Assembly (NCBI GenBank): GCA_002698885.1
Contig: PAAH01000002.1
Span: forward strand, 1 to 17,189
Direction: 5' to 3'
From: Nitrososphaerota archaeon
GTDB taxonomy: Archaea; Thermoproteota; Nitrososphaeria; Nitrososphaerales; Nitrosopumilaceae
Length of the DNA: 17,189 bases
This document shows, piece after piece, positions 1,311 to 3,116 of the stretch. The notes below the pieces were generated by a model. The model made no database searches. It was not told the DNA's origin and worked only from the letters and a program-made list of their open reading frames with translations. How positions within the stretch are numbered: the first letter of the stretch is position 1; every line of letters starts with the position of its first letter. The translations under genes and the position numbers were made by a program.

Positions 1311-1928
1311 ATGATTCATGGTCTTCGAAATGATAGGTCTGGGGCACTTGCTAAGTATGTCATTGCCCAGAAACGCCTCAAGACATTACATTACAATCAC
1401 CCTGTAATAGGTTATAGTTATGATTCAAACACTACGGGAGTACAGTACAAATCTACAGCAATTTCTGCATTAAAAACTGGAATTGTTATCGCAAAAAAGA
1501 ACGGTCGTAACCTCTCAAAATTCATTTTAGATATGAAGAAAAAAAATCCATCACAAAAAATTCGGTTAATGGGTCACTCGTTAGGCGCACAAGTTATCCT
1601 ATCTACTGTTCAGATACTTTCAAAAAATCTAAACAATAAAGGAACTATTGAGTCAATTCACCTATTTGGTGCATCAATACCAGCAAACTCATTTAACCCA
1701 CGAAAAACTGGCTCCATATTTCAAAAAATTGTTAATAAAAAAATTACAAACTATTTTAGTCCATATGATGATGTTTTGAAGGTAGCAAATGATGAATGTT
1801 GGGTAGATTCACCACTTGGCTATAATGGAGCGTCTGGGGCATCCGTTTCTAAATATACACAAATAATGGTTAAACCAAGAAATCATCGGTTTGTAAGTTA
1901 TGCTCGAACTATCAAGTCATTTCCATAA
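1311..1928 (+). CDS. Alpha/beta-hydrolase (lipase/DUF726-like), start uncertain and probably upstream
   Basis: Predicted serine hydrolase with an alpha/beta-hydrolase fold; the substrate cannot be told. From the ATG at 1311 it has 205 residues. The oxyanion strand FTIMIHGL sits at the very start, the nucleophile elbow GHSLG gives Ser90, and likely acid and base residues are Asp153/Asp154 (SPYDD) and His192 (RNHRF). The strand leading into IHGL lies upstream of the ATG. The frame is open back to 1143 and encodes plausible protein (e.g. RGFYDLKTGKALKKISYEIY), but contains no ATG, GTG or TTG. An AGGTG at 1158-1162 is followed at 1170 by ATA, which would give about 252 residues. The gene follows metG directly and is probably cotranscribed with it. 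The fold is confident; the family name and true start are not. Confidence 0.8.
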   Translation: MIHGLRNDRSGALAKYVIAQKRLKTLHYNHPVIGYSYDSNTTGVQYKSTAISALKTGIVIAKKNGRNLSKFILDMKKKNPSQKIRLMGHSLGAQVILSTVQILSKNLNNKGTIESIHLFGASIPANSFNPRKTGSIFQKIVNKKITNYFSPYDDVLKVANDECWVDSPLGYNGASGASVSKYTQIMVKPRNHRFVSYARTIKSFP

Positions 1929-1951: not shown

Positions 1952-2110
1952 TTAGGACATTGCCTTTTCATCTAAGATGAAGTATTTTGCAAGTTTCAAG
2001 TATGTTTCTCTCTCATAATCTGATAACTCTTCATCTGAACTGTAGATCCTCTCAAACCATGAAATTATATTTTGTATGTCTTTTGTTGTAAACACTACTG
2101 AAGAACTCAC
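1952..2110 (-). CDS. Small acidic protein of 52 aa, unknown function
   Basis: A short gene starting with GTG at 2110 and ending with TAA at 1952. The product begins (M)SSSVVFTTKDIQNIISWF and continues with an ERIYSSDEELSDYERETYL stretch and a hydrophobic LAKYFILDE end. It looks like two amphipathic helices with a net negative charge. There is no signal peptide, membrane segment or metal motif. Its reality is supported by varied, protein-like codon use through the whole stretch, an in-frame stop (TGA) five codons before the GTG, and tight packing 23 bp from the convergent hydrolase stop. An A/T-rich element (AAAATACTTTAT on the minus strand, about 2126-2137) lies roughly 22 bp upstream of the start, as expected for a leaderless gene. 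I do not recognise a family. Confidence 0.62.
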   Translation of the reverse strand: MSSSVVFTTKDIQNIISWFERIYSSDEELSDYERETYLKLAKYFILDEKAMS

Positions 2111-2212: not shown

Positions 2213-2563
2213 TTAGTTATTTGATTCATCATCATTATTTTTTGGATCTTTAGAATCTCCACCAGGACCTAGCATCTCTTCTGGTTTTACATCCTGATCC
2301 CATGTACCCTTAACACCTTTAATCAGTGCTAAAACTCCTGCTGAAATTATAATTGCTACAACAGTGAATACTAATGTTTTATCCTGTAAGACCTCATCAC
2401 AATCAATTTCTACTGGTAACTGATCATCTGTATATTCATAACATGTTGAAAATTCATTTGTTTGTACAGTAATCCCTGTATATTCTGAACCAATTACGCC
2501 TAGAAAGATAAAACCAATCGTAATAACCACAACACCGATCATGATAAAACGTATATCACTCAT
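2213..2563 (-). CDS. Small membrane protein with two transmembrane helices, unknown function
   Basis: 116-residue protein. A first hydrophobic helix at about residues 5-25 (IRFIMIGVVVITIGFIFLGV) is followed by a roughly 40-residue loop with two cysteines (Cys41, Cys55) in an acidic context. A second helix lies near residues 64-83 (TLVFTVVAIIISAGVLALI), and the tail is acidic and Asn/Asp-rich (DDESNN). With both termini inside, the loop would be outside, and its two cysteines could form a disulfide; this is inference. The start is the ATG at 2563, with an A/T box at 2582-2592 about 25 bp upstream. Transcription is independent of the divergent element at 2619-2748. I do not recognise a named family. 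Confidence 0.8.
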   Translation of the reverse strand: MSDIRFIMIGVVVITIGFIFLGVIGSEYTGITVQTNEFSTCYEYTDDQLPVEIDCDEVLQDKTLVFTVVAIIISAGVLALIKGVKGTWDQDVKPEEMLGPGGDSKDPKNNDDESNN

Positions 2564-2581: not shown

Positions 2582-2592
2582 GAATATTTAAT
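2582..2592 (-). promoter_or_regulatory. TATA-like box of the 116-aa membrane protein gene
   Basis: The A/T run gaatatttaat, read on the minus strand as attaaatattc, is centred about 25 bp upstream of the ATG at 2563. This is the usual spacing between a TATA box and a leaderless archaeal start. Confidence 0.4.
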
Positions 2593-2618
2593 GAATTATT
2601 TAGATTTTAGAAGTTAGC

Positions 2619-2647: not shown

Positions 2648-2748
2648 TCAGATTAAATGGAGAATTTCATACTCTGATATGTGAGTATGAAACTCTGGTG
2701 AGAACACTACCTATGTTCAGTTAATCTTGACCGAATAAATATATTTTT
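2648..2748 (+). ncRNA. Candidate structured non-coding RNA (three-stem junction)
   Basis: The stretch between two divergent genes holds no convincing ORF but can form nested stems. The outer stem pairs AGATTAA (2650-2656) with TTAATCT (2721-2727), and can extend by two pairs past a bulged T at 2728. Inside it is a 14-bp hairpin of 2661-2674 with 2683-2696, with one mismatch and an 8-nt loop. A short hairpin pairs GAACA (2702-2706) with TGTTC (2714-2718) around a 7-nt loop. A T-tract at 2744-2748 could end transcription, and a TATA-like box at 2619-2630 is spaced to start it. The strand is assigned from that box and the T-tract. It is not a recognisable tRNA: no T-loop consensus, and spacer bases between stems. 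The long hairpin could instead be a protein-binding palindrome in DNA. Confidence 0.4.
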
Positions 2749-2775
2749 CAATAAATTTACTAACTTTTCTGTAAC

Positions 2776-2786
2776 ATTATATTATA
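2776..2786 (+). promoter_or_regulatory. TATA-like box of the DUF3892-like gene
   Basis: ATTATATTATA is centred about 24 bp upstream of the ATG at 2805. There is no Shine-Dalgarno sequence between box and start, so the transcript is probably leaderless or nearly so. It separates this gene's promoter from the upstream candidate ncRNA. Confidence 0.5.
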
Positions 2787-2804: not shown

Positions 2805-3116
2805 ATGTCAGAGAGTAAATGGGCAGATTTTGTAATAACTGCGGTAAAAAGAGGCCCAGGATCAGGTAAAATTAGCCAAGTTCAGGTTCATAAAGATCTA
2901 GGGAAATCACTCGGGCAACCTGAAATTGTTGATAAATTACACGTTGCACATAATATCAAAAAAGGCAAAAAATACATCACTGTATTCAAAATTAGTGAAA
3001 CTAACTGGGAGCCAGGTGAATATGTTCGAGCATTTGTTAAGGACGGTGAAGCATTTATTCGCAGTGATGATAATAAAGTGACACTTGACAATTTAGGAAC
3101 TTTACCTGATATTTAG
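2805..3116 (+). CDS. DUF3892-like small protein, unknown function
   Basis: 103-residue soluble protein. The N-terminal part (WADFVITAVKRGPGSGKISQ) resembles the DUF3892 pattern, in which a beta strand ending in a 'V..V' pair and a charged turn precede a second strand. The middle KKGKKYITVFKI and the FVKDGEAFIRSDDN hairpin suggest an all-beta small domain. There is no signal peptide, membrane segment or cysteine. It starts at the ATG at 2805, directly downstream of a good TATA-like box, and lies 32 bp before the aminopeptidase gene, which has its own A/T box. No function is established for the family; the assignment is from pattern memory and only moderately sure. Confidence 0.8.
   Translation: MSESKWADFVITAVKRGPGSGKISQVQVHKDLGKSLGQPEIVDKLHVAHNIKKGKKYITVFKISETNWEPGEYVRAFVKDGEAFIRSDDNKVTLDNLGTLPDI

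Follow-up and report, generated by a model that had tools for sequence, protein, structure and literature searches.

The 241-nt spacer at positions 2564-2804 of the window, that is, of the whole 17,189-nt stretch of DNA analysed here, lies between two divergent genes and harbours a candidate structured element. The minus-strand neighbour encodes a small membrane-type protein for which no Pfam match was found, and the plus-strand neighbour a DUF3892 protein. The window falls in the genus of Ca. Nitrosopelagicus. The element occurs in the same spacer of a relative, Ca. Nitrosopelagicus sp. AH-558-D10 (G028; JAOMDA010000019.1), with which we compared the source genome of the window (G000). The features are listed below, identities and retained pairs referring to AH-558-D10.

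2213-2563, minus strand: gene for the small membrane-type protein, 116 aa (called 'membrane' on visual inspection of its hydrophobic stretches)
2582-2600, minus strand: membrane-gene promoter region with a TATA-like box spanning -29 to -22 relative to the ATG, 19/19 identical
2650-2656, plus strand: proposed outer stem, 5' side, pairing with 2721-2727, 2/7 pairs retained
2661-2674, no strand assigned: hairpin 5' arm (as read on the plus strand), inverted repeat with 2683-2696, 14/14 identical
2675-2682, no strand assigned: variable hairpin loop, 8 nt here and 10 nt in AH-558-D10, 3/10 columns identical
2683-2696, no strand assigned: hairpin 3' arm, 13/14 identical
2697-2704, no strand assigned: conserved tail beside the hairpin, GGTGAGAA (TTCTCACC on the minus strand), 8/8 identical
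2702-2718, plus strand: proposed 5-bp hairpin with a 7-nt loop, 2/5 pairs retained
2734-2748, no strand assigned: conserved AT tract, T-run terminator on the plus strand or TATA-like box on the minus strand (start near 2710), 14/15 identical
2766-2783, plus strand: DUF3892-gene promoter region with a box (2776-2783) spanning -29 to -22, 15/18 identical
2805-3116, plus strand: DUF3892 protein gene, 103 aa (PF13031, E 7.7e-10)

Two further genes were noted nearby. A 52-aa small protein (MSSSVVFTTKDIQNIISWFERIY..., 1952-2110, minus strand) is identical by eye at 50 of 52 positions in AH-558-D10 (954-1112 of L102); its gene starts with GTG here and ATG there, and fell under the 60-aa limit of the first listing of open reading frames. 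An alpha/beta hydrolase gene of DUF726/DUF900 type (1311-1928, plus strand) adjoins a methionyl-tRNA synthetase gene.

Both neighbours of the spacer appear to have promoters of their own. Across 97 upstream regions of the source genome, T peaks at -29 to -27 (0.46-0.57) and A/T remains high until -22, which is the pattern of leaderless archaeal genes. Both neighbour genes carry AT-only boxes at -29 to -22 from the ATG, the leaderless position, and both boxes are kept in AH-558-D10; that of the DUF3892 gene is identical at 7 of 8 positions there and at 8 of 8 in a second relative, G019. Each gene thus has a TATA-like box closer than the hairpin, which would place the hairpin outside both leaders, barring a second start further upstream, which is conceivable for the membrane-type gene. 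The initial annotation had likewise reasoned, from the TATA-like box of the DUF3892 gene, that the hairpin is unlikely to be the leader of this next gene.

The inner hairpin is real, rare and beyond chance. Its arms, AGAATTTCATACTC and GAGTATGAAACTCT, read as the initial annotation had given them, with a single mismatch on the plus strand, and this odd pair (2664/2693) is A-C on the plus strand and G-U on the minus strand in both species. A hairpin of 13 pairs in 14 positions with a loop of 3-12 nt occurs at two places in 207,345 bases of the source genome (190,156 sampled bases and the window), the second of which lies inside a called open reading frame, and a hairpin of the same quality appeared in 10 of 4000 first-order random spacers. 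The hairpin has also been kept in the relative beyond neutral drift: 27 of the 28 arm positions are identical, whereas identity at the fourfold sites of four genes nearby is 62% (123 of 198); at this background the arm identity has a probability of ~3e-5, for arms that were named before the relative was seen. Arms and tail together are identical at 35 of 36 positions (P 8e-7, for a tail that was spotted after the fact and not by a pre-planned test), while only 11 of 30 positions agree in the 5' flank and 11 of 29 in the 3' flank, which extends from the tail to the AT tract. Since arms and tail are kept against a fourfold identity of 62%, the core looks selected, and the conserved hairpin is probably under selection and does something.

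The same comparison did not bear out the three-way junction in which this hairpin had been placed. The letters of its parts are all present as described (AGATTAA/TTAATCT, GAACA/TGTTC and TTTTT at 2744-2748), and the junction itself is where the description lacks support: AH-558-D10, the single homologous spacer found, keeps the inner stem (13 of 14 pairing positions) but not the outer stem (2 of 7) or the small hairpin (2 of 5), although counting pairs in gap-free cells over both sequences gives higher percentages across the stems (90, 92.9 and 70). The initial annotation had named unconserved stems in homologous spacers as grounds for refuting its proposal, and this applies to two of the three stems in this one spacer. 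Four of the seven in the outer stem fall in an alignment gap, and a 7-bp complementarity between the flanks arose in 502 of 5000 shuffles, which is within chance; the flanks alone fold like shuffles (z -0.15). For positions 2648-2748, the proposed structure (-21.0 kcal/mol) comes near the optimum (-22.7 kcal/mol), which 15 of 1000 shuffles match, with pair probabilities of 0.44-0.79 in the outer stem and 0.07-0.08 in the small hairpin. The optimum for exactly these ends includes the outer stem and that for 2640-2750 does not, so that the junction depends on the chosen ends. One pair of the proposed structure changed on both sides, a count matched by 248 of 500 shuffles, and none did in the consensus fold; both counts come from two sequences, which cannot test covariation. 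The consensus fold further joins the GGTGA tail to an upstream stretch by five pairs across a long bulge, and in three of these pairs at least one species has a wobble; this is a curiosity and not support.

Known classes did not account for the element. The search against Rfam that had been suggested as a check gave no match: the covariance models of Rfam 15 returned nothing up to E 5 on either strand of the whole window, in which ARAGORN likewise called no tRNA or tmRNA gene. C/D box sRNAs carry a C box (RTGATGA) and a D box (CTGA); this class was rejected, as the CTGA at 2674-2677 is replaced by CCCAGT in AH-558-D10 in the alignment read by eye. GGTGA resembles a Shine-Dalgarno site, and a role of the tail as such a site for a small reading frame was discarded because no kept frame follows it. 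No open reading frame of at least 20 aa was found in the spacer; three overlap the spacer of AH-558-D10, and none is common to both.

Searches among relatives found the element in these two genomes. The pattern of 3' arm and tail, with up to three mismatches, matched in 5 of 250 family genomes including the source genome, and with zero mismatches in the source genome and AH-558-D10 only; the three 3-mismatch matches (L068, L069 and L072) were rejected as homologues, as they lie inside open frames of 102-187 codons. A covariance model built from the two copies likewise retrieved at E <= 0.01 only these two, both among the 31 genus genomes and among the 250 family genomes, the latter searched with stricter filters. 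Weak matches (E 0.09-0.92) occurred in six further genus genomes. Seven of these loci were checked for coding (L079, L080, L082, L084, L087, L089 and L090), and L081, L083 and L088 were folded; four (L079, L080, L082 and L087) were dismissed as lying inside open frames of 242-595 codons, and three (L084, L089 and L090) lie outside such frames, but their stems are imperfect and shorter. Blast gave matches of 39-46 bases in G010 (E 2.5e-4) and G025 (E 5.1e-4), matched G019 at its own promoter region (E 0.008) and elsewhere (E 0.09), and gave nine other places in the source genome (E 0.15-0.95). The hairpin pattern had one match in the genome collection, on the contig of AH-558-D10, and none in viral contigs, where relatives of neither neighbour protein were found.

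The membrane-type gene is present in 22 of the 31 genus genomes, and the spacer measures about 240 nt in two of these carriers, the source genome and AH-558-D10. In 15 carriers only 84-104 nt separate the membrane ATG from a DUF3892-type start motif, and this short spacer lacks the hairpin; G019 (spacer 88 nt) and G029 among them have a short DUF3892 gene as in the window, and the other 13 have a DUF3892 domain, which stands at the head of a much larger frame in 12 and in G001 lies where the contig ends. In the remaining five the start motif was not found in the 1200 nt upstream, which means little, as the search string also misses AH-558-D10. Judged by these genomes, the element is clade-restricted and the short spacer is the common state. 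A tree of 247 MetRS columns from 23 genomes (G003 and G009, matched only in part, and six genomes lacking a true match were excluded) unites the source genome, G019 and AH-558-D10 in one clade (97/93), within which the source genome and G019 are weakly joined (89/76). The element may have been gained in the clade ancestor and lost in G019, or gained once in a lineage of the source genome and AH-558-D10. As a separate observation, the further DUF3892 domain of 12 genus members, in a frame of 430-844 aa, faces the same membrane-type gene, so that the pair has undergone rearrangement or fusion.

We consider it quite possible, though short of probable, that the locus holds a clade-restricted functional stem-loop which most likely acts as RNA, with weak signs for the minus strand. 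An insert of about 150 bp in the spacer, confined to a small Nitrosopelagicus clade, would carry one functional element, made up of a 14-position stem-loop, a free loop and the 8-nt conserved tail, and this element could supply the structured portion either of a short transcript or of an alternative, long leader whose start lies in the spacer. The minus transcript would start near 2710, its 5' end being formed by TTCTCACC and the hairpin, and would run towards the membrane-type gene, the putative target, being the closest gene downstream on this strand. We infer transcription of the element, its strand, and either a tuning of the membrane-type gene or an action as small RNA.

Several observations speak for the minus strand: the hairpin folds more strongly on it in both species, the odd pair is G-U there, the AT tract is conserved, starts score at 2710 here and in the tail of AH-558-D10, and in the latter a T-rich stretch comes after the hairpin. 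In pieces of 49-59 nt, folding energies are -19.3 and -18.6 kcal/mol on the minus strand (source genome and AH-558-D10, respectively) versus -15.6 and -14.5 kcal/mol on the plus strand, with z scores of -6.12 and -3.92 versus -3.49 and -2.30; over 111-119 nt the z signal is lower (plus -1.93 and -1.15, minus -3.72 and -2.30). On the minus strand the AT tract forms a TATA-like box whose distance from the conserved block is roughly as expected, and a transcript, if there is any, may therefore run in this direction. Against the minus strand stands the single arm substitution in AH-558-D10, A to G at 2691, which turns a U-A into a U-G pair on the plus strand and breaks the pairing on the minus strand, and the T-run at 2744-2748 suits a plus transcript. 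Between the minus hairpin and the membrane-type gene, the source genome contains no T-run of at least four, which would leave a discrete minus small RNA without an obvious end there. Promoter scores call for caution: an EM motif search gave no sharp motif, and the position profile and positional score used instead are weak in AT-rich DNA and prove little either way. The minus start at 2710 scores 2.3, just above the shuffled 95% level of 2.0, and is outscored at other places of the spacer (up to 5.7 on the minus strand of the source genome); the second-best minus start in AH-558-D10 (4.8) lies 2 nt into the conserved tail. At the true ATG positions of the neighbours the score is -2.3 and -0.1, rising to 2.8 and 2.9 on a shift of 1-2 bases. 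If the element is RNA at all, we lean modestly towards the minus strand.

A discrete plus-strand small RNA, comprising only the inner hairpin and tail and ending at the T-run, seems unlikely. The initial annotation had taken this T-run as a plausible end, and it is conserved and even longer in AH-558-D10, so that it could end a plus transcript; T-runs are ordinary archaeal terminators, and the pairing kept by the arm substitution on this strand fits as well. The same letters form the TATA-like box of the other strand, however, and the transcript would lack a conserved outer stem and small hairpin, would fold more weakly than its complement, and would contain the poorly conserved 29 columns before the AT tract. 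The plus-strand box proposed at 2619-2630 was not supported: it is not conserved in AH-558-D10, and its score for starts at 2648-2650 does not exceed 1.0, below the 2.0 that marks the shuffled 95% level.

It is similarly doubtful that the inverted repeat serves as a DNA operator for a dimeric regulator. Its central position between two conserved divergent promoters and the 10-bp perfect half-sites of the source genome resemble the inverted-repeat operators of divergent promoters, from which the element differs by its variable spacing, its conserved tail on one side only and the failure to find a second copy in the source genome or AH-558-D10. Half-sites 8 nt apart in one species and 10 nt in the other, a difference of 2 bp, do not suit a rigid dimer and would be compatible with a flexible binder, and nearly all arm bases are kept, beyond what is usual for an operator. 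The change of loop length and sequence beside kept arms, together with the one-sided tail, favours a folded strand rather than a rigid operator.

Within the preferred reading of a folded RNA, a more specific version appears quite improbable: that the hairpin with its TTCTCACC motif, transcribed on the minus strand from its own spacer promoter, forms a switchable long leader of the otherwise leaderless membrane-type gene. It would then act in cis as a riboregulator that one Nitrosopelagicus lineage acquired by insertion. It is very unlikely that the minus hairpin and a T-rich tract act as a terminator or insulator that keeps stray transcripts out of the promoter of the membrane-type gene; AH-558-D10 has a T-rich stretch after the minus hairpin, but the source genome lacks a T-run of four there, and terminators need no conserved arm sequence or tail. 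We give equally little credence to the idea that a small mobile element (a single-strand transposon end or MITE) entered the clade ancestor and left a relic without function: the spacer is ~150 bp longer than in the 15 short-spacer genomes, G019 among them, and a hairpin with a one-sided tail recalls such ends, but 35 of 36 bases were kept while the flanks drifted, unexpected for a relic, and with no second copy found (in a source genome 64% complete, or in AH-558-D10) and a Y1 transposase in none of the 31 genus genomes, a folded strand is favoured. An IS200/IS605-type end was rejected in the same way, PF01797 being found in 0 of 31 genus genomes versus 5 of 14 control genomes.

Few regulatory RNAs are known to have been assigned in these ocean archaea. 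Uncharacterised archaeal intergenic small RNAs are, as a class, short, non-coding, stem-loop-forming and lineage-restricted, and the element resembles them as a short non-coding stem-loop between genes of one lineage; it differs as a candidate drawn from sequence alone, without a match in Rfam 15. If one clade acquired a hairpin and retained it while the surroundings drifted, this would offer a modest but datable example of how a regulatory element emerges in a compact genome. In a limited search of the literature on small RNAs of these archaea, none was found for Nitrosopelagicus. By description, not by sequence, the element may be set beside Tan1 of the marine Thalassoarchaea, likewise an ncRNA of a marine planktonic archaeon whose function is not known, which differs in its length (229 nt), its euryarchaeal host and its abundance in RNA-seq data (PMC5069720). 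The passages of that paper drawn on here report active Thaumarchaeota promoters and contigs, and in them no Nitrosopelagicus ncRNA was found (PMC5069720).

One further stretch of the spacer merits mention. The sequence AGTTAGCAT at 2612-2620 is fully conserved in AH-558-D10, amid drifting DNA between the membrane-gene promoter and the hairpin, and is possibly a regulator site.
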